Source of the DNA: Myxococcota bacterium
Lineage (GTDB): Bacteria > Myxococcota_C > UBA6777
Direction: 5' to 3'
Assembly: GCA_023150835.1 (NCBI GenBank)
Contig: JAKLKB010000005.1
Coordinates: 1 to 64,000 of the forward strand
Length of the DNA: 64,000 nucleotides
Shown here piece after piece: positions 21,724-46,098 of the stretch. A program made the translations under genes and the position numbers. The stretch's first letter is position 1; each line of letters starts with the position of its first letter. Below the pieces are notes generated by a model. It saw only the letters and a list, made by a program, of their open reading frames with translations. It was not told where the DNA came from and made no database searches.

Positions 21724-22869
21724 TCAAACTTGGCGGAGAGCGCTTGCCCACCGAGATTGAAGATGCGCGGCTTGCGTTCGGTGTTCGTGTTGTTCGGCCA
21801 GATAAGCGTCGATGGTCTCGGGGGAACAGCGGTGCGAAAAATCAGCAAAACGAGCTTTGGCGCGCATAATCCGCCGCCATGAGGCCAACAAGCGCTCTTC
21901 CGAGATCGTGCCATCGCGCAGCGCTGCCAACACCGCTTCTGTCGCAGGCCCAAGGGCCTCCCACACACGGCACAACAAAAACACGTCGATCCCTGCCAAC
22001 AAGCCGCGAACAACGATCTCTTCGATGGGATAGTGATCGGCAACGCCCTTCATCTCTAGATCATCCGAGACCACCAGCCCATCGTAGCCCCACGCCTCGC
22101 GCAAGATATCCCGAAGGATCCGCACCGATAACGTGGCGGGAGACACAGGATCAAGCGTTGGAAACAACACGTGTGCCGTCATGATCGCGGGGAGTCCTGC
22201 TCGAGCCGCCGCCTGAAACGGCGGCCACTCGATCGATTCGAGGCGTTCGCGGGGATGCGATACGGTGGGCAGTGTCAAGTGCGAGTCTTTGTCGGTATCT
22301 CCGTGTCCGGGAAAGTGCTTGCCACACGGCATCACCCCTGCGTCGATCAAGCCCTCCGCTTTCGCCATCGCGAGACGTGCGACTTGTTCGGGTTGTTGTG
22401 CCAACGAACGATCGCCAATCACGGGGTTGTGAGGGTTGGTGTGAACATCCAAGATCGGCGCAAACACCCAATTAAATCCCGCAGCCGCAGCTTCCTCCCC
22501 AAGGATCTGTCCGTACTGTCGGGCGATATCTGTGTTGCCTTCGAGCCCCAACACCGCTGCGGGAGGGAGTTCCGTAAAAGGCGCACGCAAACGACGAACT
22601 CGCCCGCCTTCTTGATCAACTCCGATCCAAGGGGGGATGGCTTTGTTGGTTTCTGCGATGGATGTATTTAGCGAGACCAATTCGGCGGGTGTTGCGATGT
22701 TTCTGGCGAATAAGATGATGCCGCCACAATGCCCCTTCTCAAGGGCTTCTTGCAAGCCTTGTGGCAGCGTTTTTCCCTCAAATCCACACACAAACAGTTG
22801 CCCGACAAGCTCACGGATATCGCGTGGGGGTGCAAGTGGAAGCGTCTCAGGATCAATGGATTCGACCAT
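21724..22869 (-). CDS. nagZ: Beta-N-acetylhexosaminidase, glycoside hydrolase family 3 (NagZ-like)
   Basis: A 381-residue enzyme that removes N-acetylglucosamine from muropeptides in peptidoglycan recycling. Diagnostic features are GVDQEGGRVRRL (84-95), the catalytic loop KHFPGHGDTDKDSH (184-197, the NagZ His/Asp acid-base dyad) and the nucleophile segment VVSDDLEMKG (about 266-275). There is no signal peptide, which fits cytosolic NagZ. The C-terminal 40 residues extend slightly past the usual core. It lies 69 bp downstream of the small exported protein gene on the same strand, probably one transcript. Confidence 0.92.
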   Translation of the reverse strand: MVESIDPETLPLAPPRDIRELVGQLFVCGFEGKTLPQGLQEALEKGHCGGIILFARNIATPAELVSLNTSIAETNKAIPPWIGVDQEGGRVRRLRAPFTELPPAAVLGLEGNTDIARQYGQILGEEAAAAGFNWVFAPILDVHTNPHNPVIGDRSLAQQPEQVARLAMAKAEGLIDAGVMPCGKHFPGHGDTDKDSHLTLPTVSHPRERLESIEWPPFQAAARAGLPAIMTAHVLFPTLDPVSPATLSVRILRDILREAWGYDGLVVSDDLEMKGVADHYPIEEIVVRGLLAGIDVFLLCRVWEALGPATEAVLAALRDGTISEERLLASWRRIMRAKARFADFSHRCSPETIDAYLAEQHEHRTQAAHLQSRWASALRQV

Positions 22870-22937: not shown

Positions 22938-23579
22938 CTACAAAAAGATCTCGACACCCGCCATCGTATTCAAACCAAGGCGGATTCCTTTGAAATCGAT
23001 CTGCTTGTAGATCGCCCAGTCAAATTGAAACAACAACCGCGCTGTAAGCGTGAGGCGCACCCGCTCAGATAGCGGTAGAACGATGCCCGCCCCCACCAAC
23101 AAACCACCAAACTCCACACGCAGGATATTGCGCTTCATCCACAACAGATTCAATTGCACATCCACAAAAAACAGCGAAAAAAACTGCCGAAGCCCTAAAC
23201 CCAACTGGCCTGTAAACAACAGCGCGACCACAGGATCGTATTCAAACCCCAACGGAAGCGCAAGAAATAGCACCGTTTGTTCTTTCCAATAGTAGCCGTA
23301 CTCGATCTGCAACTGGATATCGATATTTTGCGGCCCCACCGTCAACAGCAATCCCTCGCCGCTGGTGTTGGAATAGCGCAAGACCTGAACCCCCGGCTCC
23401 AAGCGCAAAACGACGTCCCCCAAATAACTTCTCTTGGTGGCTTGCTTTGGGGGTGTCTTCAAACTTGTTTCGGCTTTGTCTGCCTGTGCTTGCGCTGGAC
23501 GCTGCAAGCCCACGCACAACCCCCCGATCCAACCAACCCACAGCGCGCACACAAACCATCTCTTCAACAGATGACGCAT
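22938..23579 (-). CDS. Small exported, probable outer-membrane beta-barrel protein
   Basis: 213 residues if started at ATG 23579. The signal peptide WFVCALWVGWIGGLCVGL... ends in PAQAQA. The mature part has alternating hydrophobic strands such as LQIEYGYYWKEQTVLFLAL and GLRQFFSLFFVDVQLNLL. The pattern and size suggest an 8-strand outer-membrane barrel, but no family was recognised. A longer in-frame reading to 23771 runs into the family B repeat and is rejected. It precedes nagZ. Confidence 0.7.
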   Translation of the reverse strand: MRHLLKRWFVCALWVGWIGGLCVGLQRPAQAQADKAETSLKTPPKQATKRSYLGDVVLRLEPGVQVLRYSNTSGEGLLLTVGPQNIDIQLQIEYGYYWKEQTVLFLALPLGFEYDPVVALLFTGQLGLGLRQFFSLFFVDVQLNLLWMKRNILRVEFGGLLVGAGIVLPLSERVRLTLTARLLFQFDWAIYKQIDFKGIRLGLNTMAGVEIFL

Positions 23580-23745
23580 CCGACATCCAAAACCTTCGGT
23601 GGTTCGGGCGATTCCCCGCATGGAAACAGCACACGACCCCCACAGACTCATCCGTTGAGATACAACAGATCCGCTCTGTGGCGCAAGTGAGCTTAGGCAC
23701 GAGGAACACGGTTGGGAGCGCAGAAAAGTCATGCCGATGGTGTTT

Positions 23746-23865
23746 GCGGGGCGTTGCCCCATACCCCACAAGGGACCTTCGGTCCCTTGACCCCGTATCG
23801 GCGAAGAGATCGTTTGCTTTTCAAACAGACAACTCTGTCGCTTGAGATGCCGCGAACACGGGGGT
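23746..23865 (-). repeat. Family B structured repeat, copy 5
   Basis: In minus orientation it shows GTGTTCGCGGCATCTCAAGC, CGCCGATACGGGGTCAAGGG and a terminal TATGGGGCAACGCCCCG-type hairpin. It abuts the family A pair that starts at 23866, so three structured repeats lie end to end in one intergenic space. Confidence 0.65.
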
Positions 23866-23983: not shown

Positions 23984-24099
23984 TACGAGATCCGCCCTTT
24001 GTGTGATCGTGAGGATGTAGGAGCAGACAGGTGTGTCTGCCCGATCATAGGGCATCTACGTACTCTCCTTTGTGTACGCATCACTCGGATATCGTATTA
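23981..24099 (+). repeat. Family A inverted-end repeat, copy R3b, carrying a gene's stop codon
   Basis: It runs from TTATACGAGATCCGCC to CGGATATCGTATTA. It shares three boundary bases with copy R3a. Its last three plus-strand bases (24097-24099) are the TAA stop codon of the giant minus-strand gene. Confidence 0.7.
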
Positions 24100-27000
24100 C
24101 GTCGACGAAGAGCGAGGGCGGAAACGACGGGCAACAAACAAGACGAACAACAGCAGCAAGGCCCATATCCCCCAAGCCAAGGCTTTTTTCAATGGAGGCG
24201 TGTGAAGTAGCTGGAGTTGCAAACGCGGCTTGGCTCCCGGGGTCGTGTAAGAGGAGAACTGGCCCACAGAAGGCATCTCAAAGGCTTTCTGTGGGGTCGT
24301 GCGTTGGGCCGCCTCTTGGGGCGTCGGTGCCAAATTTTGTTGAAGGATCTGTTGCGGTAGAAAGCGTTGCCAATTACGCGGACTGGCGGGGGCCTGCTGC
24401 GTATAACGCGGTCGCATTTGTTGGATGGTTTGGGTAATGCGTCCGAGGCGTTCTTGGATATCCTTGGTTTGGCGGGCTTGTTGGCGGTTCAGTTTGCCCG
24501 ACTGAAGCTGCCAAGAAAGCTGAGAATTCAAGGCTTGGGTTTGTTGGGCGGATTGTTGGAGTGTGGACAATTGCTGAGCGAGGTTGCTTTGCGCTCTTCG
24601 TCGTTGCGCTTCTGGGCCTGTATCCGAGAGCTTTTGGAGCTTTTGCAAGAAAGACAGGCCTTGTTCGAGCCGATTGTAAGAGGCGCGCAATGTGACGGTC
24701 TCTTCCATATTGCCGTCACTGCGCAAGATCTGCCATCCGCTCGGTAAAGCCACATCCCAAAAGCTCTCGACGACCTCGATCCCTTCGAGATGTGGAGCGG
24801 GCATCTCCAACGCAGGAGCTGTCCCTGTCAGCGCAAACTGGTGGGCATACAAGACACGGATCTCGTAAGCGAGATCGGCGAATTGACGCGGTGGCAAGGG
24901 GATCAAAAACCGCTGGGGTGGATCTTTGGGCGAGCGCGCTGGCAAGACAGGTCGTTCTTGCACGCGGATCTGCCAAAGCTGCGCACCTTCGGGCAAGCGC
25001 AACGGCAACATCTGCAGGCCGGGGGTTCGTAAGCGATAACGTGCCTCGGTCCACGCTTGCCCTTGTTCAGCGATCGCGGTGCGCAAGTGCGCGGCTTCCA
25101 CGATCGGCTGCATCGCCACATCGGTCTTTAACAAGATGCGTTGCAACGCCATCGACCACATTTCTTCGCGGGCGCGAAATGCCGCAAACACCCCGCCTGT
25201 ACCTTGTGAAGGCGTGCTCTCTTGTAAGAAATCGTTCGGCAAAGCAGACGAAGAGATCTCATCCAGACCTTTTCGCTCCTTGGCATCGAGAGAGACACGG
25301 ACTTCGGAAACTTTTCGCAGTGCAAAAAAGGTTTCTTGTTGCTCGACGCCTTCGGCACGAACAAAGGGCAACGTCACCGTCCCGTTGCGCGGGATCGGCA
25401 AACGCATCAAAAAGCGCAGATGCAGATCTTTTTTCAATTGCACCCAAGACAGCGCAAACGAAGTGCGTCCTTCTTTGGTGGTTTGTTCGAGGCGTGCGCC
25501 GCTTGGCCTATCGATCTCGATCTGATCGGCCCAAACGGTGGGGACGGAAAAGGCAAAGACCTTGGAACCCGGACCCATCGCCACAAAGCGAACCCCGACG
25601 TGTGCGCTCACTTGATCGGGCTGCACCAGCACGTTGTAGTGCGTCGTGGCCCGTTGTTCGCTTGGGATCACACGAGACGACAAACGCACACGATATTCAC
25701 CCACGATCTTGAAAAACAGACGCTTCTCTTGTTCCCGCATATCGGGCGCATCCGAAGGCAGTTCTTCTTCGTCTAGCGTACCCGCAACCAGCCCTTGCAC
25801 CTCGTCGCTTTGAAGCTCCAACGTCGGCAAAGACAACACCCACAGCCCCCCCGTCAGCTTTTGCGTCCCATGAAACCGCAGCGACGGCGCTTCGGAACGC
25901 AACGCAGAGCTTGGCATCAAGGCGTCGATGTGAAAGACCTGCCCCCGATGAAGAGGCTGTGCAAACTCGATCACCCATTCGCGGATCTGCCCATGCAGCG
26001 GTCCTTTCCACACCTGACGGATCGCTGCCCCCATCGAGGTCTCGATGCGGCGAAAGCGCAAGGCGTCGGGAACTTGCAAGCGCAGCGTAAAACGCGGCTG
26101 TTTGAGTTGTTTGATCTCGACCTTTGCCCAAAAACGCGACGTGGTCGGAAGTGACGACAAGACCGCTTGCAGATCGATGTGCATCATCGGATCACGCCAG
26201 CGCAAGGCGAGATGTAGCGCGGGTTGACGCTGGTACGCATACGCCAACTGCACCGTTCCACCCCATTGTTGGGAGGCTCCATCGTAGGCTTCGGGAGTCC
26301 GCTTTTCGGCGTGTTCGGATTGCAAGATCGTCCATTGGATCGAAGAAGCGGCAGAAAGCCCGACAAAGCCGACGTGTTGAGCAGCAGAAACAGGCTCCAA
26401 CAAAGGCAACTGCAGCCGCTGATCAACCTTTTCGTGCAAGCGAACTATTTGGATACGCAGATCCGCCCGCTGGACGGGTTCTTCAAAGATCACCGTCAAT
26501 TGTTGTCTTTTGTCGGGGGTGCGCAGCAGATTCCATGCGCGAATTTGCGTGCCTTGGATGGATTCGAGCTGCACCTCCGCAGGCAACCAAAAAGACACAC
26601 GATCATGCTTGCGAAACTGCCGTTGGATCTGGAGGCGGGTTTGGATGCGGATCAACGCTTCGCGGATCGTGACATGATGATACGCCTGAATCTGCGGTGC
26701 CTCGGGCTCTTCGGCTTGCACTTCACGCTGCGCCCAACGAACGCTCAGATCGCGTGTGGCTCCCAAGATCGCATCCACCACCGTTTCCGAGGCCGTTTGC
26801 GTCTGTGACCATCCGCCTGCTTGCTCTGAAAACGACATCTGCCAAGAGCCTTTCGGCAGGTGAAGCCGCAAAGAAGCCCCACTCATCGGGGATAACTGCA
26901 AAAACAGGTGGCGATGGTAAGCTTTTTGTTCGGGCAGCGAAAAGGACAGACGCAATCGCACCCGGCCCGGGCCTTGCAAAAAAGCCGTGTATCCGTCCGT

Positions 27001-30000
27001 TCCAACATCCAACGTCACATTCTCTTCGACGCCCCACCCTTGTTCTTTTCCACGCAAAGCACCTTGCGCCCGTTGCATCTTGGCGGCCTGCAAACGCGCC
27101 CCCTTGAGGCCCAACGGGATACGTTGCCACGTTGGATTCAAGAGATGAAGGTCCACCACCATCTCGCCTTCGGTGCTACGGGCCTCTTGGACGCGGAGCG
27201 TGTAATGGGCCTGCCCCCACCATCCCACCGCTGCGGCAGGACGACACGGAAGCTGACGACGTTGTAAGCCTTCCCACAACGCTCGGCGCAAAAAGACGGG
27301 CGTTTGCGGTGTCAACAGATTGGCCTCTCCTTTTTTCGCGATCTCGGGCAGAAACACGGGCAGATGTTTGGGAAGGGTCCGTTGGATCTGGGCTTGGCTT
27401 TCGGGCGGACAAGGCGGCAGATCTTGCGCAGACGCCTCGCGACCTGCAGCCATCGCACCGAACCACAAGACCACCGAAACCACCGCGATACGCGCTTGTT
27501 TGCGGCCCAACAACACGCTCACAACCCAAGCCAAGCCGATCCCCGCAAGCAAACCGTTGCTCGCCATCCGCGCCATATCCTCAAACAGCATCGACGCCAA
27601 CCCCACAAAAAACAGCGAACCACCAAAGAACAACCAGCGCCGTTGGACCCACCACACGCCGCAAGCCAGCCACAACAGCAAGCCCAGCAGCACGATCAAG
27701 CCCATCATCACGCGCACCACTTCGCCTTGCCACAGCACCACCGCGATCTCGGGAACCGCCCCAAGGCTCGTCCCTGACAATCGCCATCCGTGTGGCTCCG
27801 CGCCCACAGGCAACGAACGGATCCCGCGCATCATCCGCGCATCCGCACCTTTGAACGCCATCTGCATACTGCGCTCGATCTCTTTGCTGCGCTTCTCCAA
27901 TTCGGACGCCACTTTGTACTCAGTTTTCTTGCCTTTCTTCTGGCCGCCAAGCTTGGGTTTTCTTTTCAACCCCCCGACATCACCGCTCGGAGCGTTGGCA
28001 TCGTCGCTGTCGCTTTCCGCTTTTTTTCCATAAGTCCCCAGATTACCGATCCCAGTCATGCTCGAAGGCTTGGAATCGTCCTTTCCATCTTTTCCACCCA
28101 GCAGGCCCAAGATCCCGAGTTTTTGGGCTTGTTGCTCTTTTCCTTCGCCGCGCTCTTCATTTTTGGTGGCGATCTCGCTTCGTTTTTTGCTGTCCTCTTC
28201 TTTGTCTTCTGGGCGAGGCGAAGGCTCAGCATCTTTCGGGGCCTCTTGGGTGCTCTTTTCTACCGCGCTTGGTTCGGGAGAAGTTTCTACCGCGCTTGGT
28301 TCGGGAGAAGCTTCTCTGACGATGCGTGCTGGAGGCGGCGGTGGCGCGGGGGGTTCAGCAGGAGCGTTGACCACCGACGGCTTGGGCATCTCCAGTTGTG
28401 GGGCGGGTTGCTGTTGAGGAACTTTTGCATCGTCTTCATCCGCCGAACGGGCAGACCGCGTTGATCGGGATTCTTCCATCGGCATCGGCATCGGCTTTTT
28501 CGGCGCGTAGTACCGTCGCGACTTTCGAGCCAATTGGCGATAGTAGACATTGGGACCCGCAGGGGCAGGGGCTGCCGTTGCGGCTGGCGAAGACGGCGCA
28601 GCGTCGTAACGTTGGGATCTCTCCCCTCCACGAGCGCCAACGCCAGAAGAAGCGCCAGACCTTCTTCCTCGCCCGCCCATCCGACCTTCGCGTTGCGGAG
28701 CGCTGTCAACATCCAACGTGCTGGAAGATTTCTGCTCGTCTCGGTGAATGTATCTTGAGAAACGATTCGACCGAGACATCGACATTTCGGGCGGCGCTTG
28801 TTTGGTGTAGCGCATCGAAGACGGCAACAGAAACACCATCCCCACCATCAACAAGATCACCAACCCGATGCTCAAACGCCAACGCAAAAGGAACCACCGC
28901 AAGATCCACCACACCCAAGCCCGCAACCACCACAGCACCACCAAGAAAACGAAGAAAAACGCCAACGCTTGGAGATCGCTATCTGCTTGAAGGCGGTTGA
29001 GGGCGCGCAACATCAACACATCGGGCTGCGCCGAAGAGGACATCTGGATCGTCGTTCCCGCAAAGATCGGGTGCATCGAGCCTTCGACAAACAGATTCCA
29101 TTGTGTTTGTTGGATCGGGTAGGTCACTTGCGGCGCTTTGGCTCGCAAAACTTCGCGTGGCTTCAGACGTTCGGCAAAACGCACCGTGTAAAAAACACGG
29201 ATCTGATGATCTTCGCGGTGCAAACCACCAAACAGCGGAACTTGGATCCGCTGCTTTTCGCGCAAAGGCTTCACGCCTTTGCCGTTGAGCGAAACCGACC
29301 ACATCTCCGCACCTTCGGGAAGCTGCGCTTCAAAAAAGGCCAAACTTTGACTGCGCAGATGCCATGTCACAGAAACCCGCATCACTCCCGATGCAAGGAC
29401 TTCTCCGTCGATCTGCATCGAACGCACAAGCACCTGCAACGTCTGGTGCGGATCATAACGGCGCACTTCGACATCCAACACAGGCTGCGCACCCGAGGAA
29501 CGATACACCACCAACGGCGTGATCGCCGCTTTGGGATGAACAGGCGGCGGCAAAAGATCGGGTTCGATCAACGTCCATTGGCGGGGCAACAGCTTCAACG
29601 AAACGCGCTCTCCCCCTGCAACCGCCGCCCACATCCGCAACGAACCCGCATCTGGCGAAGACAACGTCGGCAAAGCCAACTGGCGATCTTGAGGATTCAA
29701 ACGTCGCTGAAAACGCAGCGTGATCGGGATTTGACCATAGACTTCACGTGAAAGCTCGATCTCCCACTGCATCGAACCATCCGCATTTTCGGCTGTTTTT
29801 TGCTGTGCGATCTCGACTTGCGGCGACAACACCAACCAAGAAAAACCGTTGGCGCGCTTGGCGACCAAACGAAGGCGGCGTATACCTGCCCGCTGGATCC
29901 GCACAAACGCATCGAGATCACCCGTCAACATCGCATCGTTGACGTGATAACGCCCCACAGCCCACAATCGGATCTCTGGCTTTTTGCGTGCGATCTGCAA

Positions 30001-31812
30001 TTGCCCACGATACGGAAAGGCCAAGATCCGATACCGCAAACGCTCTTGGATATCCGCTCCTTCTCGGCGTACCGCTTCTTCGGGCAAGATCTGCTGTGAC
30101 GACAGCATCCGCAACGCATAAAACGCAGGCGACACGATCTCGATACGGCCTTCTTGGAGGGATGCACCCTCGATCTGGGTTTGCGGCAAAGCCATCTTTT
30201 CTTCGCCGACTTCGGGAAGCTGGAGGTTTCGCACCCACACCAGACGCACCTGCAAGCTTTGGCCTTCTTCCAAGGGCCTCGCTAACTCAGCCAACCAGCG
30301 GCGGCCTGAACGTGAAAAGCGCATCTCTTTGTTTTGACCATCGCGAAAATCATAAAGCTGCCAACCTTCGGGAGAAACGCCGCTCAACTGGTACAGCGTC
30401 CCGCGCTTCATCGCGATCTTGGCGTCGGTTTCAAAACGGCCTTGGCGGACTTTCATCGACATCGTCATCGCGTGGTGAACGTCAAAGCGCGGTGTCAGCT
30501 TTTCGATCGTCAACGCCAACCTTGCGTCTGTTCGCCAATACACAAAGTACAAAGACGTTCCGCGCATATCCGCCGTCTTCGCGGCGTTTGGAACGGCCTC
30601 TCGACGCAAGGCCCCGCTTTCTTCGCTGCGGTATCGCAGTTGGCGATCCATCTGCACCCACAACGTACCTTCTTGGGCGTACGCATCGGCCACTTCGATC
30701 GGCTGCCATCGCCAGATCGAGGCTCCATCTTGCCGCAGCAATCGAACATGCAGCAGCGCCCCCTCGCTTCCTTGCGGAGTTCGCAAACGCACCAACACCT
30801 CGCGTTGATCTTTGCCGCGCAAAGAGAAATCCACCAACGCAGCCGAGCGGATATCGACCAACCGAAAGCCCGCAGGGACGCGGAAGATCGCTTGCTGACG
30901 TTGCCCCAGACGCCAGCGCAATTGGATATCTGCATACAGCCATTGCACGTTCGAGCGCACCACCAAACGATGCGTAAGATGCGCGTCCATCAAGCTCTTG
31001 CGTTGCGTCACTCCTTCGCGTGGACGAAAGACCAAGCTCACGCTCTCTTGCGAGCGCAGCGCTCCCTCTAACACCGTCGCATCGGTGGCGCTTTGCAGGC
31101 GTACCCCCAACGGAAGACCGCTGACTTCTTGTTCGGGTGGCAGACGCAGGCGAAGTTGTGACACGGGACTTGGGGGGAGTTGGAAGGCCAACACAGATCC
31201 ACGAGGCGTATGACGGATCGCACTTCCTGCATCGATCCACAAACGCCCTTGCGACGGCCCCCACACGTCCAACACAAAGCCAGCGCTTGTTGCGCGCACG
31301 CTGCCCAGAATGCCCGAGAGTTCGACATTTGATACGGCAAATCCGCTCATCGGCAAAAAGATCCGCTGCCATCCTTGGCGTGCGACACGCAGTTTCATCT
31401 CGATCCGCAGACGAGCTTGTTGGCCTTGCCAGACGGCCCCTTCGCAATGAACGCGCTTCAACAACCATCGCATCGGAGCCTGCTTGGTTTCAGCGGATTG
31501 TTGCGCAACCCACGCTTGCCAACGCGCATACAACTGGCCGTATGGAACGACCACACCATCGGCTTGATCTTGCAACAAGCTTTGCCAAGCCTCGACAGGC
31601 GTCCAGATCAAACGCAACGAGGGAAAAGACTCCGAGGGTTTCGGCCTTGTAAGACGTGGGCCATGACTCCCGTCCCATCGAGAAAAAGATGCACCCGTTC
31701 CATCTAAAAACGGACTCGGTTTGCCCGCAAATGCCGCCTGTTGTGCGCCCCACTTCCACACGCACACACACACGACGCACATCCACCAACGAAGGAGGTT
31801 TTGGTTCTCCAT
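24097..31812 (-). CDS. Giant exported protein, two-module, about 2571 residues
   Basis: Not a named family that I can assign. The N-terminal signal peptide is CVVCVCVWKWGAQQAAFA. Module A (to about 940) is beta-rich with repeated RLRL/VRL strands. TM segments follow (AFFFVFLVVLWWLRAWVWWI, then IGLVILLMVGMVFLLP). A Ser/Pro/Glu linker of about 250 residues includes APPPPPARIV and GILGLLGGKDGK. A multi-TM cluster lies at about 1365-1440. A second signal-peptide-like stretch ends EASAQ. Module B is again beta-rich, then a Gln-rich coiled region, then a final TM (AWGIWALLLLFVLFVARRF). It starts at ATG 31812 (GTG 31815 also possible) after AGGAGG, and its Shine-Dalgarno overlaps the upstream gene's end. 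The stop lies in a family A repeat. I recall similar long proteins with VPYxxL openings in Planctomycetes (not verified). Confidence 0.8.
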   Translation of the reverse strand: MENQNLLRWWMCVVCVCVWKWGAQQAAFAGKPSPFLDGTGASFSRWDGSHGPRLTRPKPSESFPSLRLIWTPVEAWQSLLQDQADGVVVPYGQLYARWQAWVAQQSAETKQAPMRWLLKRVHCEGAVWQGQQARLRIEMKLRVARQGWQRIFLPMSGFAVSNVELSGILGSVRATSAGFVLDVWGPSQGRLWIDAGSAIRHTPRGSVLAFQLPPSPVSQLRLRLPPEQEVSGLPLGVRLQSATDATVLEGALRSQESVSLVFRPREGVTQRKSLMDAHLTHRLVVRSNVQWLYADIQLRWRLGQRQQAIFRVPAGFRLVDIRSAALVDFSLRGKDQREVLVRLRTPQGSEGALLHVRLLRQDGASIWRWQPIEVADAYAQEGTLWVQMDRQLRYRSEESGALRREAVPNAAKTADMRGTSLYFVYWRTDARLALTIEKLTPRFDVHHAMTMSMKVRQGRFETDAKIAMKRGTLYQLSGVSPEGWQLYDFRDGQNKEMRFSRSGRRWLAELARPLEEGQSLQVRLVWVRNLQLPEVGEEKMALPQTQIEGASLQEGRIEIVSPAFYALRMLSSQQILPEEAVRREGADIQERLRYRILAFPYRGQLQIARKKPEIRLWAVGRYHVNDAMLTGDLDAFVRIQRAGIRRLRLVAKRANGFSWLVLSPQVEIAQQKTAENADGSMQWEIELSREVYGQIPITLRFQRRLNPQDRQLALPTLSSPDAGSLRMWAAVAGGERVSLKLLPRQWTLIEPDLLPPPVHPKAAITPLVVYRSSGAQPVLDVEVRRYDPHQTLQVLVRSMQIDGEVLASGVMRVSVTWHLRSQSLAFFEAQLPEGAEMWSVSLNGKGVKPLREKQRIQVPLFGGLHREDHQIRVFYTVRFAERLKPREVLRAKAPQVTYPIQQTQWNLFVEGSMHPIFAGTTIQMSSSAQPDVLMLRALNRLQADSDLQALAFFFVFLVVLWWLRAWVWWILRWFLLRWRLSIGLVILLMVGMVFLLPSSMRYTKQAPPEMSMSRSNRFSRYIHRDEQKSSSTLDVDSAPQREGRMGGRGRRSGASSGVGARGGERSQRYDAAPSSPAATAAPAPAGPNVYYRQLARKSRRYYAPKKPMPMPMEESRSTRSARSADEDDAKVPQQQPAPQLEMPKPSVVNAPAEPPAPPPPPARIVREASPEPSAVETSPEPSAVEKSTQEAPKDAEPSPRPEDKEEDSKKRSEIATKNEERGEGKEQQAQKLGILGLLGGKDGKDDSKPSSMTGIGNLGTYGKKAESDSDDANAPSGDVGGLKRKPKLGGQKKGKKTEYKVASELEKRSKEIERSMQMAFKGADARMMRGIRSLPVGAEPHGWRLSGTSLGAVPEIAVVLWQGEVVRVMMGLIVLLGLLLWLACGVWWVQRRWLFFGGSLFFVGLASMLFEDMARMASNGLLAGIGLAWVVSVLLGRKQARIAVVSVVLWFGAMAAGREASAQDLPPCPPESQAQIQRTLPKHLPVFLPEIAKKGEANLLTPQTPVFLRRALWEGLQRRQLPCRPAAAVGWWGQAHYTLRVQEARSTEGEMVVDLHLLNPTWQRIPLGLKGARLQAAKMQRAQGALRGKEQGWGVEENVTLDVGTDGYTAFLQGPGRVRLRLSFSLPEQKAYHRHLFLQLSPMSGASLRLHLPKGSWQMSFSEQAGGWSQTQTASETVVDAILGATRDLSVRWAQREVQAEEPEAPQIQAYHHVTIREALIRIQTRLQIQRQFRKHDRVSFWLPAEVQLESIQGTQIRAWNLLRTPDKRQQLTVIFEEPVQRADLRIQIVRLHEKVDQRLQLPLLEPVSAAQHVGFVGLSAASSIQWTILQSEHAEKRTPEAYDGASQQWGGTVQLAYAYQRQPALHLALRWRDPMMHIDLQAVLSSLPTTSRFWAKVEIKQLKQPRFTLRLQVPDALRFRRIETSMGAAIRQVWKGPLHGQIREWVIEFAQPLHRGQVFHIDALMPSSALRSEAPSLRFHGTQKLTGGLWVLSLPTLELQSDEVQGLVAGTLDEEELPSDAPDMREQEKRLFFKIVGEYRVRLSSRVIPSEQRATTHYNVLVQPDQVSAHVGVRFVAMGPGSKVFAFSVPTVWADQIEIDRPSGARLEQTTKEGRTSFALSWVQLKKDLHLRFLMRLPIPRNGTVTLPFVRAEGVEQQETFFALRKVSEVRVSLDAKERKGLDEISSSALPNDFLQESTPSQGTGGVFAAFRAREEMWSMALQRILLKTDVAMQPIVEAAHLRTAIAEQGQAWTEARYRLRTPGLQMLPLRLPEGAQLWQIRVQERPVLPARSPKDPPQRFLIPLPPRQFADLAYEIRVLYAHQFALTGTAPALEMPAPHLEGIEVVESFWDVALPSGWQILRSDGNMEETVTLRASYNRLEQGLSFLQKLQKLSDTGPEAQRRRAQSNLAQQLSTLQQSAQQTQALNSQLSWQLQSGKLNRQQARQTKDIQERLGRITQTIQQMRPRYTQQAPASPRNWQRFLPQQILQQNLAPTPQEAAQRTTPQKAFEMPSVGQFSSYTTPGAKPRLQLQLLHTPPLKKALAWGIWALLLLFVLFVARRFRPRSSST

Positions 31813-31817
31813 CACGA

Positions 31818-34800
31818 TCAATCCTCCTTTTTACCCGTTTTTTTCGCCGCTGGGGTCTTGGCTTTGGCGGTGGACTTTGGCGCAGCGGAGTCCACCTCAG
31901 CAGAGGTGTTTTGTTGAGGCTTGTTCGTTTGGGAGGTTGCGCTGCCTGACGAAGTTTCTGGAGCCGCACTGGCTTCGGGCACATTGGCAACTGTCTTCGC
32001 GGTCGTGCCAGCAACCGTCTTCTCGGTCGTTTGGGTAGAAACAGGCGGAGCAGATGAAGAGGTCTTGCTCGATGTTGCCGATCCCGCTTTGTAATTGTCC
32101 AAGACCGCAAGATCATCGCCCTCATCGGACGGGATAGTTGGAAGCGGTGAAGCCGACGGACTCGGCGCGGTTTTGGGAGCAGATGAAGCCGACGGACTTG
32201 GCGCGGTTTGTGGGTTCGCTTCGGCCAGCTTCGCCCAACGATCATCTCCGCCGAGGTTTGCGGCTCCCACCAACATCTGCCAGCGTTCGCCCGCGTTGCG
32301 GAACAAAGCGATCCCCATCCATCCCACCGACAACATCGCCACCGACACCGAGGCAGAATACAGCAAATGCACCCACGCCACAGGCAACAGGCTCGAACCA
32401 AACAACAGCAACAAAAAGGCGAACGTCGCAAGCCGTAGCCGCTGAATCCCCTGTTGTAACGGGCTTCCTAGCACCAACAGCACCACAAACATCACCAAAA
32501 ACGCCGCCAGTTCCAAAGCCCATTGCAACCAAGGACTGCGAAAGGCCACGTTGACACGGACGTTTCCAGAGCGCGATACAAACGCTTTGTATTTTGCACG
32601 ACGCGGAAACTGCGTAGACATCTCTCCCGCAGCCCCCACAAGCCCGGCATATTCGCCCGATAACGTCCCCCAAAATCCACCATCCCACGCCGAAACCCAC
32701 AACGCCTCACGCAAGATCTGCCACATCCCCCGCACATTCAAGCGATGCCACATCGACGTATCGTAGGCCACATACGACGGATTCTTGGGCAGATGCAGAC
32801 GCAACGTACTTCGCAACACAGGCGTATCCACCAAGATCGGGCCTTGGTAAGCCAAACTTCCCGACCACTGATCCAATCGCGTCTTGTTGGGCAAGGCATG
32901 GCGATAACGCACGATCAACGGAAAGACTTGGCCATCGTTTCGCTGCACCAGATCCACCAACAACTCACCTTTTGCATCCAACTCGAAACGATATCGATCA
33001 CGCTCTGCCACCCGCAAGGAAAGCACCTGTGCTTCTTGTGGCAACTTGACCTTCAAAAACTGACGGCCCCGATTGCGGATCTGCGCCATCGCCAAGACTT
33101 GGACCTCGCCTTCCATATTGACCACCGCTTCGATGTGCATCACGGGAACCACCGCACTCAACACTTGTGCATAACGATGGCGACGCAAGTAGATCTTCAA
33201 AGCAGGCGGTTCTTTTTCACGCGAACGCAACACCCGAGACACTTTGGTTCCTGACGCAAACGACGGGATATCCGAGACATCCACACGTGTGATCCCTCGC
33301 GTCTCTTCGTCTTGCAATGACAAGCTCTCTTCTTTCTTTAATCCCCAATACACCTCTTGGCGCAAAGCCCCCGGGATCACAAATGCAGGCAATACCACAT
33401 CGCGCAAAGCTCCTACATCCATCGCCTTTTTGAAGGGGTAGGCGTAGGTAAACGACACCAAAAAATGCGCATCACGCGGGATGCGGCGATCCATCAACAA
33501 GGTATACGTCGTCTTGCCTTGCTTCTCTTCTTTTCGGGTTTCACGGACGATCGTCGTGATCTGGATGCGCTTTGCCACTTCCGAAGACACCGTAAATTGA
33601 AGCTGCTTGGTCCCTGCAAAACGCACTTGATATCGCAACGTCCCCTCGATCCGATAGCCATCTTCGCGCAGTTGCACAGGCAACCAAGCCTGCGCTTCGA
33701 TCGCCGTAGCTTTCCGACGCAGCTTGACTTTCCCCTCGGCAGGACGGCCCACATAGCGAAACGCTTGACGCAACGGATAACGCCCACCTCGTCCCAACGC
33801 CGCCACTTCGTCGATATCTTCGACCGACATCAGCCCCTTCAAACCTTCGGTCTCAAGGTCCAGATGGCGTGGCAACAACAAGCCCACCTCGCCACGTTCG
33901 CTCTCCAATCCCAACGGCTCAATCAACGGAATCGCCAACGTATCCGCCAAAGTATGCTTTCGCTGCATCCGCACCTGACAACGATGCACCAAACCACTCT
34001 GATAACGCACACGACCAAACAGCCGCTGCAAGGCTTGGAGCGAACGCGGACTCGTCAACCGCTCACGCAACAAACTCTCCGAAGACCCGATCTGTTGCAA
34101 AAGGTCCCATCCCATCTGGTGTTTCAACGTCGCCCAAAGCTGCTGCGCTGAGACTTGGCGGATCTGCACAGGCCCCCCGATCTTGTCCTTTAACGTCACC
34201 ACCAAAGTGTCCTTCCCTTCGAGGTAATGATCTTCCATCGAAGGACACGTCACCTGCAACAACTTCCAGTCCGCAGGGATCCGAAAACGCAGGCGATCCA
34301 CTCCCGCACGCTCGATCTGAAACGCCACATTTGTCCACAACATCGCTTGCTCTTCATCCAATTGAAGCTGATGTGCGACACGGCCCCGCAAGCGCGGCTG
34401 GATCTTTTCGAGCGTCACCGTCAAACTGTAATCCGTCGAAAGATACGAAAAAGCCTGCTGAGGAGCGCTGGTCTTGTTGATGCGGGCGTATTCTTCGGGA
34501 TCGATCTGGTTGACGCCTTGTTGTGCGGGGATCTTGATCTGCAACGCACCATCCACGCGCAACGCGATCCCTCCGTGTTGCCAAGCCGCTCCCTCGACAC
34601 GTACCTTCGGGATCTCCACTCGTTCGGGCGTCTTCGGCCAGATCTGCTCAAACTCCAAACGCAGCGACTGGCTGCCTTTCAGCGTCTTTCGCCACAGCAA
34701 CACAAGGATCTGTGCATCGTTGTGTTTGCGCGTGCGCCATCGCAAAAGCTGTCCACCCGCATCCACCGAGATCAAACGATTTCCCGCAGGCAAATGGATC

Positions 34801-35681
34801 TCCGTCGTATCCTGCCCCCCGCGCAAGATCCGCAAGCCGATATCTGCCCGCATCCGCAACGCCCCTTCGCTCAACACGCAATCCAGTTGGGTTTGCGCCG
34901 ACAAGATCGTCCGACTCCCCGTCTGGACCTGTTGGCGCGGAAACCACCGCAACAACAAGGCACTCTGCGGACCCAACTGCAACGTCGCGGTCGCTTCGTC
35001 GCCCTTACTCACCAACGGCGCAGATTCCCCATTGACCGACATCTGAAGCCCTTTGCCTTGAACGCTGATCTGCAACTGTGTCTGTGGCGTCGGAGGGATC
35101 GAGATCTGCGCCTCACGCCAACCCCCTTGGCGCTTTGCTTGGCCTTGAAACACCAAGTGCAGCTTGTGGACGCCTGCTCCCTGCACCAACAAGTGCGGTG
35201 TTCCCCCTTGTCTTGCCGAAGAAAACAACAAAGCCGGCTTTCCGTCCAGATGTGCCGTCCACAGCGGCAACCCTTGGAAGGGCAATGACACGCGCACCCA
35301 CCCTTTGTCTCGCAAAACACGCAACGCGAGATCGGCCTCCAACAACACCTGCTCGCCCTGCACGCGCACCCGATACGTCGCGTGTGTCAACACCGCTGAC
35401 ACAGGCACCTGTTGAGAACGCTGTTTCTGCCAACGTTTCAGGATATCCATCAACACGCTGTACTGCTCGCGTGAAAGAAACACCCCCTCTTCCTTCATCA
35501 CTTGTCCGAGCCGATGATAGGGCACATACACGCGCACTTCTCGCAAGGTCTCAATCTTCTCGCTGTTCGTCGGACGCGAAGACGGCCCACTCTCCGCCTT
35601 CACCACACCCATCGCACCCCACCATGACCCCAACAAGGCCAAAGCACACCATAGACCGCACCACCGTCGTCTCTCAAGCAT
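31818..35681 (-). CDS. Large exported protein, 1287 residues, paralogous layout to its neighbour
   Basis: A signal peptide (ALALLGSWWGAMGVVKAES) leads to VRVYVPYHRLGQVMKEEGVF, reminiscent of VVVPYGQLYARW in the neighbour. The rest is largely beta-rich. Phrases such as VSLPFQGLPLWTAHLDGKPA and IHLPAGNRLISVDAGGQ match the neighbour's style. C-terminal TM segments (ALELAAFLVMFVVLLVLG and FAFLLLLFGSSLLPVAWV, about 1050-1130) precede an Ala/Ser/Pro/Thr/Lys tail. The likely topology is a large periplasmic body anchored at the C-terminus. The stop at 31818-31820 is directly followed by the downstream start, so the two are probably co-translated and may form a complex. Function unknown. Confidence 0.82.
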   Translation of the reverse strand: MLERRRWCGLWCALALLGSWWGAMGVVKAESGPSSRPTNSEKIETLREVRVYVPYHRLGQVMKEEGVFLSREQYSVLMDILKRWQKQRSQQVPVSAVLTHATYRVRVQGEQVLLEADLALRVLRDKGWVRVSLPFQGLPLWTAHLDGKPALLFSSARQGGTPHLLVQGAGVHKLHLVFQGQAKRQGGWREAQISIPPTPQTQLQISVQGKGLQMSVNGESAPLVSKGDEATATLQLGPQSALLLRWFPRQQVQTGSRTILSAQTQLDCVLSEGALRMRADIGLRILRGGQDTTEIHLPAGNRLISVDAGGQLLRWRTRKHNDAQILVLLWRKTLKGSQSLRLEFEQIWPKTPERVEIPKVRVEGAAWQHGGIALRVDGALQIKIPAQQGVNQIDPEEYARINKTSAPQQAFSYLSTDYSLTVTLEKIQPRLRGRVAHQLQLDEEQAMLWTNVAFQIERAGVDRLRFRIPADWKLLQVTCPSMEDHYLEGKDTLVVTLKDKIGGPVQIRQVSAQQLWATLKHQMGWDLLQQIGSSESLLRERLTSPRSLQALQRLFGRVRYQSGLVHRCQVRMQRKHTLADTLAIPLIEPLGLESERGEVGLLLPRHLDLETEGLKGLMSVEDIDEVAALGRGGRYPLRQAFRYVGRPAEGKVKLRRKATAIEAQAWLPVQLREDGYRIEGTLRYQVRFAGTKQLQFTVSSEVAKRIQITTIVRETRKEEKQGKTTYTLLMDRRIPRDAHFLVSFTYAYPFKKAMDVGALRDVVLPAFVIPGALRQEVYWGLKKEESLSLQDEETRGITRVDVSDIPSFASGTKVSRVLRSREKEPPALKIYLRRHRYAQVLSAVVPVMHIEAVVNMEGEVQVLAMAQIRNRGRQFLKVKLPQEAQVLSLRVAERDRYRFELDAKGELLVDLVQRNDGQVFPLIVRYRHALPNKTRLDQWSGSLAYQGPILVDTPVLRSTLRLHLPKNPSYVAYDTSMWHRLNVRGMWQILREALWVSAWDGGFWGTLSGEYAGLVGAAGEMSTQFPRRAKYKAFVSRSGNVRVNVAFRSPWLQWALELAAFLVMFVVLLVLGSPLQQGIQRLRLATFAFLLLLFGSSLLPVAWVHLLYSASVSVAMLSVGWMGIALFRNAGERWQMLVGAANLGGDDRWAKLAEANPQTAPSPSASSAPKTAPSPSASPLPTIPSDEGDDLAVLDNYKAGSATSSKTSSSAPPVSTQTTEKTVAGTTAKTVANVPEASAAPETSSGSATSQTNKPQQNTSAEVDSAAPKSTAKAKTPAAKKTGKKED

Positions 35682-39205: not shown

Positions 39206-39684
39206 CGCTTTCTTCTCCCAAGCTGCTTTCTGGCGCTGTTTTCTCTCTGGATAGGACTTACGCAGTTCGATACGAAAAAGGCCCATGTTCGGGCGTGGGC
39301 GGTTCGCGAACCGCCCCTACAACGTTCTGATATCTCAGGGTTTCCCTTTTCAACTGCGTAACTCCTATCTGGAATCTTTTTTGTTCCCCACGCAAACACC
39401 AAGTTTGCCCGAAGCCACGCCACCAACGCAACCCCCTCCGCTTTCCACCCCCCACCGCACTTCACGATCGCCTCGCCTTGCAGAAGCACAACACCTTCGC
39501 TAAAGTACCCTCCACACAAACGCGGCGCTTTTTTTCTTCTCGCAGCCTCCCCCAACGTCACCGTCCTCACCCCATCCACACACCGCAGCGTTTGATTCTC
39601 TGACCCTTGCCATCGAGTTTTCCGCAAGGTGCGTCCCCTCAACCCAACCGCACATACGCGCCTGCGTTGTCGAGACTCGAACAA
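39202..39684 (-). pseudogene. Possible small Cys-containing reading frame interrupted by a MITE
   Basis: About 105 codons upstream of the element encode a plausible protein piece (TLRCVDGVRTVTLGEAA, then APRLCGGYF and VIVKCGGGW-like text), entering the element at 39368. Downstream of that it reads element sequence and stops in an ATGA overlap with the methyltransferase. Removing the element plus one CTGG copy would put this frame in phase with the methyltransferase. It may be a disrupted gene or only non-coding leader; evidence is weak. Confidence 0.25.
39251..39368. mobile_element. 118-bp MITE-like element with 17-bp TIRs and CTGG target duplication
   Basis: The left end ATAGGACTTACGCAGTT (39251-39267) and right end AACTGCGTAACTCCTAT (39352-39368) are inverted repeats with one mismatch. 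CTGG flanks both sides (39247-39250 and 39369-39372). The interior holds a perfect 20-bp palindrome at 39297-39316. It has no coding capacity, so movement would need a transposase from elsewhere. Its ends match those of the family B repeats. Confidence 0.75.
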
Positions 39685-39723
39685 ACCTCCATTCCCAAAC
39701 CTCTAGCCCCCGTGAGGTGGATC

Positions 39724-41373
39724 GTGCCTTCGAGACGTTTGCTTTTGTACTCATTGTTGCTTGTTTGCCTTTGTACCACTCCGCTTTTCCTCGGATGCGA
39801 AACCTATATGGCGATCTCTCAAGATCCGACCCAACGCCCAAAAACCGAACCCATCGCCTCGATCGAACCCCCCCCCGAAGAGATCCCCCCCGAAGAACCT
39901 CCCCCCGAAGAACCCGAATGTACCGACGGTGTCCGTGAGTCTTGCGAAACAGGAGAACCCGGTGTCTGCGCACCCGGCGAACGCCTCTGCAACAACGGAC
40001 GCTTTGGCCCTTGCAAACGTCTCCAAGAACCCAGCGCGGAAATATGCGACAACCTCGACAACGATTGCGACGGAAAAACCGACGAAGACCTCCAACGTAG
40101 CTGCTACACAGGCCCCCCCGAAACCCGACAAATCGGCGACTGCCGCGATGGAATCCAAGTCTGCAACTCTGGACAATGGGGCCCCTGCCTCGGCGATATC
40201 TTGCCCAAAGAAGAGATCTGCGACAACCGCGACAACGACTGCGACGGCTTTATCGACGAGTACCTCCCGATCCAACAAATCGGCACCGTTCGCAACTACT
40301 CGAATCTCGGCGATTATAGCCACTTGTACATGGTCTCCACACCCAACGGCTATGCCTTCGGTTGGTCCGAACGCGCTCAAAGCGAGATGACGGGGCAGAT
40401 CCGCGTCACAGGCGTCCGCCCCGACGGCGACCGCGAAGGCTCCGACTGGCCCGTCACCAAAGAAGGAGAACGCGGGAATATTCACGGCCTCGCATGGATG
40501 GGCAAAGGCTTTGCCGTCGCATGGGATACAGACCAATCGCGTGGACGCGATATCTCCGATGCGTATATAGGAACCTTTAACCCCAACGGCAGTCGATTAC
40601 GCGGCCCCTTGATGCTTGAACAAGGCGGACGTGCCGCCAACACAGGCGTGACCTACGGTGCGGGCCTTTTAAGCGTTGGCTGGATCCGCTACCTCGACGA
40701 ATCTAGCGGATACATACGCCTCCAACTCTTTGACACCGATCTCAAACCCCAAGGCGAGATCACCCCCATCCAGCCCGAATACGCGCTGCTTCCTCAAAAC
40801 TCTCCTTTCCCCGCCATGGCTTTCAGCGGAAACCAAGTCGCCGTTTCTTGGTGCGCTCCCCAACGAAAACTCAAACTCGGACTCTTCGACAACAAGGGCA
40901 AACCCACCAACACCTTCTTCGATATCCCCAACGCAGGGATCGCTCCTGCCGACCCCGCCATCACGGGCTACAACGACGGCTACCTCCTGCTGTGGACCGA
41001 CCTCAACAGCAACCCACCCGGCGCTCTCTACGCACAACGCCTCGACCGACAAGGCCGCACCGTCGGCACACGCCAAACCCTCAGCAACGAAGGCAGCCGC
41101 ACCCCCACCCTCCAAGTCACCTCCTTTGGTGCGGTCGTCGCGTGGTATCAAGAACAGGCTCGCGGATTGGGCGTCTCCATCGGTCGCGTCGACCGCGACG
41201 GAAAACTCCTTGCCCCTGCTTCTTGGTTCTCTGTCCCCAACATCCAACCCTACATCACGATGGCTTGGACTGATCTCGGAAAAGGCTCTGGACGCGGTGC
41301 CATCGCTTGGATAGAACGCGAACAACGACTCAATGTCGATCGCATCATGGTTGCCCCCCTCGGCTGTCGCTAA
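39724..41373 (+). CDS. Lipoprotein with two MopE-like DNDCDG metal-binding motifs
   Basis: 549 residues. The signal ends in lipobox LFLGC, then a Pro/Glu-rich stalk (PPEEIPPEEPPPEEPE). Two Cys-rich repeats each carry ICDNxDNDCDGxxDE, the putative Ca/metal-binding motif known from MopE and many myxobacterial surface proteins. The rest is a beta-rich, propeller-like region with repeated GYAFGWSE- and GFAVAWDTD-type strands. It is probably a surface-displayed binding protein. The GTG 39724 start follows GAGGTGG; GTG 39712 lacks a ribosome site. Confidence 0.8.
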   Translation: MPSRRLLLYSLLLVCLCTTPLFLGCETYMAISQDPTQRPKTEPIASIEPPPEEIPPEEPPPEEPECTDGVRESCETGEPGVCAPGERLCNNGRFGPCKRLQEPSAEICDNLDNDCDGKTDEDLQRSCYTGPPETRQIGDCRDGIQVCNSGQWGPCLGDILPKEEICDNRDNDCDGFIDEYLPIQQIGTVRNYSNLGDYSHLYMVSTPNGYAFGWSERAQSEMTGQIRVTGVRPDGDREGSDWPVTKEGERGNIHGLAWMGKGFAVAWDTDQSRGRDISDAYIGTFNPNGSRLRGPLMLEQGGRAANTGVTYGAGLLSVGWIRYLDESSGYIRLQLFDTDLKPQGEITPIQPEYALLPQNSPFPAMAFSGNQVAVSWCAPQRKLKLGLFDNKGKPTNTFFDIPNAGIAPADPAITGYNDGYLLLWTDLNSNPPGALYAQRLDRQGRTVGTRQTLSNEGSRTPTLQVTSFGAVVAWYQEQARGLGVSIGRVDRDGKLLAPASWFSVPNIQPYITMAWTDLGKGSGRGAIAWIEREQRLNVDRIMVAPLGCR

Positions 41374-44087: not shown

Positions 44088-44253
44088 AAACTCGCAAACC
44101 CCATCCCAACGAACCGAACGAGGCCATACATCACCTCACCCATCAAACGGCAGAAAACCACACGCCCGCTCGTTTCACAAATTTTCGGAACGTCTTGGCG
44201 CATCCCAACGAAACGTGCTAGGATGCGGGCCTCCCAAGGGAAGGAGCTTGAAC

Positions 44254-46098
44254 GTGCCAAAGTTGGATATCAGGATAGGCCATCACGCAAGACAGCAAGT
44301 GGATATCAACAAACCGCAGATCTGGATCGGCAGCGACGAAAGCTGCGATGTTTTTTTGCGCGAACCCGGTGTCTCGCGTTTTCATGCACAACTGCACGTG
44401 GACGAACAAGGCCGATTCTGGCTCCAAGACGCAGGTGGTAGCTTTGGAACGCTGCTCAATGGCCGCGATATCGAGCGAGAACAACTTTTTGAAGGCGACG
44501 AGATCACCCTCGGTCGGATCAAGATCCTTTTCCACGAAGAAGGCGCTCCCTACCGCAGCGGCCTTTCCCTCCCCCCCCAGATCGCAGGACTCCAACTCCC
44601 CGCACCCGCACCTCATCCACCACATCCACTAGGTTCCTTGCCTCCCGCACTGCGCGATGCATCCCTCCATTCATCCCCACCACTCGGCTCTTTGTTTCCT
44701 CCTGAACCCCACGAACAAAATATGCTGCCTCCATCCAAATCCACCGCACAAAGCGCATCATCTCCATCCGAACCCACCGCACAAAGCGCATCATCTCCAC
44801 CCGAATCAACCGCACAAAGCGCATCTCTTCCACCCGAATCCACCGAGCAAGACGATATCGCGATGCTTCACGATTTTGCATACGATGCCGATCTTCCCGA
44901 AACAACCGAATCTTCCGCTCCATCGCCGCTTTCGCTGTTATCTGCCGACGAACTCCCTGCTCCACCACCCACTTCGCCTTCTTCTTCGATCTGGCCAGAA
45001 GCCTCGGAGCTTGCAACCAATTTGCCCACCCATGCCTTTACTCAGACCAGCGAAGCAGAACCAGAAGCCTCGGAGCTTGCGACCGATTTGTCCGATCATC
45101 ACTTTACCAAAAACAACGAAACCGTGATCACCGCCTATCCATCGGCCTCAACAGCAGACGACTCACACGCTTTTTTAGATGGACTGATGTCCTCTGTGCC
45201 TTCGATCCAAGATCTGGATCGAGACTTTGATGCTGTGATGTCGAACCTGCCGCACACTTCGATCTCTCCACTTGCTAATCCTCAAAAAAGCCCTTCTTTC
45301 GGTGCTTTTGCACAAGCCATCCAGCCCTACATACAGCCCCAAAGCTTTCACCACGATCCACACGGGATCGTTCTTCCTATCCAAGAAGAAGATATCCCCG
45401 CTCACCCCTCCCGCGTTTCATCCACACACACCCAAGACACCCAAGACGCCCAAGATATCTGGCAAAAAGAGCAAACAGCTTTGGGGCTGTTTCCGTCTTC
45501 GCTCTCCAACGAAACAGCCAGCTACGGACTGTTTCCTTCCGCAGAAGATCGCACACAACCTGCCGCCCACGCGCCTCCGCATCTCTTGGCTCCGCCCTCG
45601 GCCCAAACAAGCCCCTTGTCTTTGAATGAAACGATCGCGCATATACTTTCGCACGCACCACAAAGCCGCCACGAACTCTCGTCGTCTTTTCACAAAGGCG
45701 ACGTCTGGGCAAGCGAGGCGGATCGGCTGCGTGGCCTTCTGCGACAACGCGAAGAAGAAACCTCCACACTCCAAGAACGCCTTCGCCTTCAAGCCCAACA
45801 ACACCGAGATCTGATGAACACCACGCTCCAACGGTACCGCGAAGAAAATGAACAACTTCAACGACAGATCGCGTTCTACGATCAAATGCGCCTCGAACAA
45901 ACCCAGATGCTCCAAGCTCTCCACGATCTCGAAGAGGCGAAACAACGGCTCCTTGAAGAAAATCAGCGCCTACGTGCTGAAAACCAAGCATGGCGCGAAG
46001 ACGCGAAGACGCGAAGACAACAGCCTCCACACGCTCCGACTTCTCCTGACAACCCCCTGAATCACGGGTTGCCGCCGCAAGCAGCAAAGAACTCATGA
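44254..46098 (+). CDS. FHA-domain protein with disordered middle and C-terminal coiled coil
   Basis: 614 residues. The N-terminal FHA domain (about 4-100) contains IWIGSDESCDVFL and GVSRFHAQL, then GTLLNG. FHA domains bind phosphothreonine; here the usual Arg of IGR is Ser, which may weaken or alter binding. The middle 370 residues are Ser/Pro-rich with repeats such as STAQSASSPPE and two copies of an EASELAT segment. Residues about 483-590 form a strong coiled coil with many Leu/Glu heptads. GTG 44254 has AAGGAG seven bases upstream. Its stop overlaps the kinase start by four bases (ATGA), so the kinase is the likely phospho-partner. Confidence 0.88.
   Translation: MPKLDIRIGHHARQQVDINKPQIWIGSDESCDVFLREPGVSRFHAQLHVDEQGRFWLQDAGGSFGTLLNGRDIEREQLFEGDEITLGRIKILFHEEGAPYRSGLSLPPQIAGLQLPAPAPHPPHPLGSLPPALRDASLHSSPPLGSLFPPEPHEQNMLPPSKSTAQSASSPSEPTAQSASSPPESTAQSASLPPESTEQDDIAMLHDFAYDADLPETTESSAPSPLSLLSADELPAPPPTSPSSSIWPEASELATNLPTHAFTQTSEAEPEASELATDLSDHHFTKNNETVITAYPSASTADDSHAFLDGLMSSVPSIQDLDRDFDAVMSNLPHTSISPLANPQKSPSFGAFAQAIQPYIQPQSFHHDPHGIVLPIQEEDIPAHPSRVSSTHTQDTQDAQDIWQKEQTALGLFPSSLSNETASYGLFPSAEDRTQPAAHAPPHLLAPPSAQTSPLSLNETIAHILSHAPQSRHELSSSFHKGDVWASEADRLRGLLRQREEETSTLQERLRLQAQQHRDLMNTTLQRYREENEQLQRQIAFYDQMRLEQTQMLQALHDLEEAKQRLLEENQRLRAENQAWREDAKTRRQQPPHAPTSPDNPLNHGLPPQAAKNS

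Follow-up and report, generated by a model that had tools for sequence, protein, structure and literature searches.

Tandem giant proteins of a Myxococcota bacterium belong to a bacterial family of predicted membrane-anchored beta-sandwich arrays encoded in a conserved three-part order

Two adjacent giant genes, here called gene A and gene B, lie in a stretch of 64,000 nucleotides from a Myxococcota bacterium (assembly GCA_023150835.1, contig JAKLKB010000005.1, positions 1 to 64,000; the window), and the locus raises the question of what they encode and what their products do. A first-pass annotation had listed them as tandem exported proteins. Its coordinates, lengths (1287 and 2571 residues) and junction proved correct by open reading frames (ORFs) and translation; the strand, minus for both genes, had not been given, and gene A is the upstream partner of gene B (Table 1). 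As that annotation had described, both proteins have signal-peptide-like N termini and hydrophobic C-terminal helices, judged by sequence and hydropathy, and share a VPYxxL-like opening (VYVPYHRL and VVVPYGQL). A central membrane cluster in gene B, visible in the hydropathy profile, had not been mentioned. The absence of a recognised domain was likewise borne out: neither gene had a significant match in Pfam, NCBIfam or PADLOC, and PDB sequences gave none in single-sequence or profile searches. The pair is among the larger gene blocks of its genome, yet the family has no Pfam or NCBIfam model.

Gene A and gene B are homologous, which the earlier annotation had missed together with the double make-up of gene B. 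In BLASTP, gene A matched the first half of gene B with an E-value of 8.6e-17 and the second half with 4e-10, and profile comparison with hhalign related A to both halves (Table 1) and the halves, termed Bn and Bc, to each other (E 2.6e-23). By these alignments, gene B consists of two fused A-like units (Bn + Bc). Between the halves stand a membrane hairpin, a charged linker of about 350 residues, the central membrane cluster and a further signal-peptide-like segment (ending in ...WFGAMAAGREASA-QDL), a layout that the joining of two genes for secreted proteins would give. The cluster and this segment are a probable relic of a once separate Bc gene, and a separate Bc gene exists in loci L161 and L165. 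A second tandem pair in the same genome, C (1006 aa) and D (821 aa; contig C63, L019:4765-10251), encodes units that are homologous to A, Bn and Bc, but shorter. All five units are mutually homologous (BLASTP/hhalign), and both pairs are also carried by G001, of the same genus, and by G003, of the same family.

At the A/B junction (minus strand, aaggaggatTGAtcgtgATG), a Shine-Dalgarno-like AAGGAGG sits within the 3' end of the gene A coding sequence; GTG 31815 and TTG 31821 are alternative starts of gene B. Because of this motif and the spacing between stop codon and ATG, translation of the two genes is probably coupled.

The first-pass annotation had staked its reading beforehand on the two genes occurring together in other genomes, and their order was found to be conserved. 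It is kept in G001 and G003, from the window's phylum, and in G352, G164, G276 and G139. Among 20 planctomycete loci chosen for long matches, about 18 carry a gene of approximately 1100-1200 aa followed by a gene of approximately 2300-2850 aa; in L161 and L165, which count among them, a pair of genes of approximately 1140-1470 aa each stands in place of the double-unit gene. Start and stop codons of consecutive unit genes commonly overlap or adjoin. A tree built from 76 units over 503 columns grouped A units from different phyla together with a support of 0.955, three single units falling inside this group, and Bc units with 0.92. In L161 and L165, the second gene of the set joined the Bn group and the third the Bc group. 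The set comprises a single unit, followed by a gene for a double unit or by two genes for one unit each, with a tree group for each position. Since each position forms its own group across phyla, the tree places the three positions, and the triplication behind them, as old and distinct.

The distribution of the family was surveyed with a profile built from 11 units in 386 genomes sampled across bacteria. Strong matches were obtained in 29 genomes, including 25 that do not belong to the window's family, and four of the five genomes of the window's phylum in the collection matched. In addition, a scan of named genomes yielded 80 loci whose record titles cover more than ten phyla: Omnitrophota, Hydrogenedentota, Planctomycetota, Aminicenantes, KSB1, Calditrichia, Latescibacterota, Krumholzibacteriia, Ignavibacteriae, TA06, Elusimicrobia, Armatimonadetes, Myxococcota, other Deltaproteobacteria and Gammaproteobacteria (Thiomargarita, Venteria, Thiotrichales). 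These phylum names are those of the depositors' titles, and some labels of metagenome-assembled genomes (MAGs) are doubtful (L097, 'Klebsiella pneumoniae'; L124, 'Diapherotrites'). The 80 loci include two isolates, Plesiocystis pacifica SIR-1 and Enhygromyxa salina SWB007, and two relatives of the window's organism, Myxococcota bacterium KLAP109 and Deltaproteobacteria bacterium NP119. The phylum of G276 was taken as Planctomycetota on the strength of its DUF1559 proteins, of which G276 has 130 and G139 57; this family is reported to be apparently confined to Planctomycetes (PMC10632474). The unit family occurs in 55 of 149 genomes of this phylum. The likeness to large exported proteins of Planctomycetes, which the first-pass annotation had suggested, was upheld by the planctomycete relatives that the profile found, as was its description of exported, beta-rich, membrane-anchored giants for which no characterised member is known.

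Variant pairs were seen in eight loci (L096, L106, L110, L113, L119, L120, L133 and L154), which are myxobacterial, deltaproteobacterial and in some cases planctomycete. Their upstream gene (900-1600 aa) has a large insertion, with weak TPR matches in some, and their downstream gene encodes approximately 610-690 aa; few or no membrane helices are present, which suggests a soluble or differently anchored form. In L145, L148 and L149 (Venteria, Thiomargarita and Thiotrichales; giant sulfur bacteria and relatives), a single unit of about 1050 aa has a duplicated N-terminal domain. M16-type peptidase genes lie near the pair lacking transmembrane helices in L097, L121 and L143, the title of L097 suggesting a mislabelled MAG. 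As they stand 3' of this pair in too few deltaproteobacterial loci, M16 peptidases were rejected as partners.

Structure prediction gave a first view of the likely fold. For the short unit D of KLAP109, AlphaFold2 (72 sequences) returned a model with a mean predicted local distance difference test (pLDDT) score of 82, most of residues 85-570 exceeding 90. In this model, three beta repeats are accompanied by a disordered linker, a small beta hairpin and membrane helices. For gene A, model confidence is high at residues ~96-497 and ~840-975, and three C-terminal helices are present. For both models, Foldseek ranked chains of ribophorin I/Ost1 first (E 1.5e-9 and 1.2e-8; 6s7o_E), followed by integrin alpha legs, M1 aminopeptidase N-domains and inter-alpha-inhibitor heavy chain; Foldseek prints the entry title only, and the oligosaccharyltransferase chains are taken to be Ost1/RPN1. 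The units are therefore modelled as tandem beta-sandwiches of the M1 aminopeptidase N-domain/ribophorin I type, followed by membrane helices near the C terminus.

Ribophorin I/Ost1 (PF04597), an accessory subunit of the eukaryotic oligosaccharyltransferase, likewise consists of tandem sandwiches of this type on the non-cytoplasmic side, with a signal peptide and a C-terminal membrane anchor. The likeness, including the succession of sandwiches and membrane helix, is at the level of the fold (8-12% identity). Unlike ribophorin I, the units have more domains, several membrane helices and an ordered triple encoding, and they show neither a profile match nor co-occurrence with STT3. With the N-terminal domain of M1 aminopeptidase/leukotriene A4 hydrolase the sandwich type is common over about 200 columns, but the unit proteins are without the zincin catalytic domain, and no Pfam Peptidase_M1 match was found in them. 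DUF4424 (PF14415; Legionella lpg2210) is an exported bacterial protein with a leukotriene A4 hydrolase N-domain-like sandwich and a proposed role in large assemblies (PMC3848476). It combines a single sandwich domain with a YARHG helix bundle, whereas the units would form membrane-anchored tandem arrays, and PF14415 had no Pfam match in unit proteins.

The gene context was compared for functional partners. Polysaccharide-precursor genes, to which the first-pass annotation had linked the pair, did not hold up as such. In the window, a sugar epimerase gene ends 124 bases before the start of gene A, and this gene and an upstream UDP-glucose dehydrogenase gene, together with a methyltransferase gene, are shared with G001, of the same genus, and not with G003. 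Elsewhere, one planctomycete has a single UDP-glucose dehydrogenase gene nearby, and the epimerase and dehydrogenase genes are otherwise missing upstream of the pair in the compared loci. No third gene is generally conserved around A-B in these loci.

In a planctomycete subset, the neighbours are instead genes for an extracytoplasmic function (ECF) sigma factor and for a VWA/YfbK membrane protein in which an anti-sigma zinc finger is often present. Comparison of whole-genome YfbK_C matches with unit matches showed a VWA/YfbK_C gene immediately 5' of a unit gene in at least 13 planctomycete genomes, where a rough estimate would predict about 0.5. Of the VWA-linked loci examined (L168 and L181-L192), seven have an ECF sigma gene preceding the VWA gene (L168, L181, L183, L184, L186, L187 and L191), and four others begin within the VWA gene at a contig end. 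A zf-HC2 anti-sigma finger was found in four of nine VWA proteins scanned (L168, L183, L185 and, weakly, L191) and FecR in that of L186. In about half of the VWA-linked loci, only a double-unit gene follows the VWA gene. Locus L172 encodes a very large zf-HC2+VIT+VWA protein (L172:10971-16000), with the neighbouring ECF gene and the A-B pair both divergent. ECF and anti-sigma-like genes also stand upstream of single-unit genes in four Hydrogenedentota loci and in G280. At the genome level, YfbK_C was present in 40/55 unit-positive and 42/94 unit-negative planctomycete genomes (Fisher p 0.001, uncorrected for relatedness). The VIT domain was rejected as a partner, being uninformative because it is too common (109/149 genomes).

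ECF systems whose membrane-bound zf-HC2 anti-sigma proteins bear VWA/YfbK_C are thus operon partners of the units in part of Planctomycetota. To these systems the giant units would be an added component, and the open-access literature searched held no description of the unit family. The fold type and the operon partners of the unit proteins are known. In MoxR-Bat operons, BatA and BatB (VWA) and BatD likewise set a VWA membrane protein beside a beta-rich, C-terminally anchored periplasmic protein. Unlike these operons, A-B had no Bat-family Pfam match, and no MoxR ATPase was seen adjoining the pair.

Taken together, A-B is probably a device of bacterial cell envelopes, with a structural or sensing role, that has so far gone unrecognised. 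The surface or envelope structure suggested by the first-pass annotation is plausible. As a more specific reading, with a chance somewhat short of even, we propose a non-catalytic periplasmic scaffold or sensor of three ordered parts, anchored in the inner membrane and tied to ECF sigma/anti-sigma systems in some lineages. A, Bn and Bc would be parts of one old ordered assembly. Each part would be exported by its N-terminal signal, fold in the periplasm as a row of M1-N/ribophorin-I-like sandwiches and be held in the inner membrane by one to four helices near the C terminus. The three arrays together could bind or track the state of the envelope. Where ECF and VWA genes share the operon, often with an anti-sigma zinc finger, the VWA protein may relay this state to the sigma factor; for the window's organism, the scaffold would work without such a switch or via an unlinked regulator. 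The data show homology and fusion of the units, their order, orthology by position and the sigma/VWA linkage of a subset; the fold is a model prediction, and localisation, topology, assembly and signalling are inferred along with the scaffold/sensor role. The strongest form of the proposal, in which a machine of more than ten phyla uses three position-specific giant beta-array proteins, assembled in the inner membrane and extending into the periplasm, to report envelope state to an ECF sigma factor via a VWA anti-sigma protein, with the lumenal domain of ribophorin I as a distant structural cousin, is considered unlikely.

Several observations weigh against the scaffold/sensor reading. At the window locus, neither a sigma nor an anti-sigma gene adjoins the pair, and the upstream ECF and VWA genes are lacking; the genome encodes one YfbK protein (617 aa), which is unlinked, and G003 and G164 encode none. 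Sigma coupling in the window's own organism is therefore not supported. Most A-B loci are without sigma/VWA genes. The middle of the gene A model is poorly predicted, and the Bn group in the tree is weak (support 0.37). Whole-chain TM-scores in Foldseek are low (0.1-0.3) because the arrangement between domains differs; the likeness therefore lies at the domain level and not in the overall arrangement.

The closest rival is that A-B is a passive structural product, such as an envelope scaffold, tether or surface layer support, which in some lineages is a target of the ECF regulon and carries no signal. This somewhat doubtful alternative draws on the same rarity of linked sigma/VWA genes, the window's own phylum included, and on the long beta arrays, tails and linker, which fit a tether; moreover, ECF operons commonly encode their own targets. 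The sigma-VWA-unit order in seven planctomycete loci, with the VWA protein fused to the anti-sigma finger in several, is more specific than targets would need, but still compatible with them.

It is decidedly improbable that the proteins form an adhesive, integrin- or inter-alpha-inhibitor-like surface complex in which VWA proteins with a metal-ion-dependent adhesion site (MIDAS) mediate cell-cell or cell-surface contact. Foldseek matches to integrin alpha legs and inter-alpha-inhibitor heavy chain, the linked VWA proteins and the one zf-HC2+VIT+VWA protein would fit this idea. However, the C-terminal multi-helix anchors and cytoplasm-facing tails suggest the inner rather than the outer membrane, the integrin matches are to generic beta-sandwich legs, and VWA genes are missing from most loci.

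Very unlikely, finally, is a role of A and B as ribophorin-I-like accessory subunits that hold substrate for a bacterial oligosaccharyltransferase: ribophorin I/Ost1 is the best Foldseek match of two separate models and shares an arrangement made up of a signal peptide, at least two beta domains and a membrane helix, but this role is not supported because the ribophorin hidden Markov model PF04597 matched in none of eight unit-bearing genomes at E<=10 and in no unit protein in the Pfam search, and because STT3 is missing from the window's genome and shows no co-occurrence with the units (3/29 unit-positive genomes against 34/357 others; Fisher p 0.75); the sandwich fold is, besides, also found in M1 aminopeptidases and others.

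A PADLOC search for anti-phage defence models gave no match to unit proteins. With a name for the family and for its three-part order, the system becomes testable, as cultured relatives exist (Plesiocystis pacifica SIR-1 and Enhygromyxa salina SWB007) and the sigma-linked loci offer a direct functional reporter.

Table 1. Features of gene A and gene B (columns: feature; position in the window; strand; basis).
Gene A, single-unit protein, 1287 aa	31818..35681	-	ORF and translation; homology to each half of gene B
Gene A N terminus, signal-peptide-like, residues 1-29	35595..35681	-	direct reading of sequence
Gene A beta-rich body, residues ~96-975	32757..35396	-	AlphaFold2 model and Foldseek
Gene A, three C-terminal membrane helices, residues ~1050-1138	32268..32534	-	hydropathy and helices in predicted model
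Gene A tail rich in Ala/Ser/Thr/Pro, residues ~1139-1287	31821..32267	-	translation
A/B junction: Shine-Dalgarno-like AAGGAGG, stop TGA 31820-31818, start ATG 31812 or GTG 31815	31810..31832	-	sequence
Gene B, double-unit protein (Bn + Bc), 2571 aa	24097..31812	-	ORF, translation, homology
Unit Bn beta-rich body, residues ~50-940	28993..31665	-	hhalign A vs Bn E 2.4e-23
Membrane hairpin C-terminal to Bn, residues 941-1003	28804..28992	-	hydropathy
Inter-unit linker, low-complexity, charged/Pro-rich, residues 1004-1355	27748..28803	-	translation
Gene B central membrane cluster, residues 1356-1436, and signal-peptide-like segment 1438-1462	27427..27747	-	hydropathy, sequence
Unit Bc beta-rich body, residues 1463-2539	24196..27426	-	hhalign A vs Bc E 1.6e-32
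Gene B C-terminal membrane anchor, residues 2540-2564	24121..24195	-	hydropathy

Downstream of gene B, the window carries genes for an outer-membrane-barrel-like protein (22938-23771, minus strand) and a GH3/NagZ-like glycosidase (21724-22869, minus strand), both of which are likewise downstream in G003 (L018). Further genes of the window encode a protein with MopE-like metal-binding motifs (39607-41373, plus strand) and an FHA-domain protein (44215-46098, plus strand).

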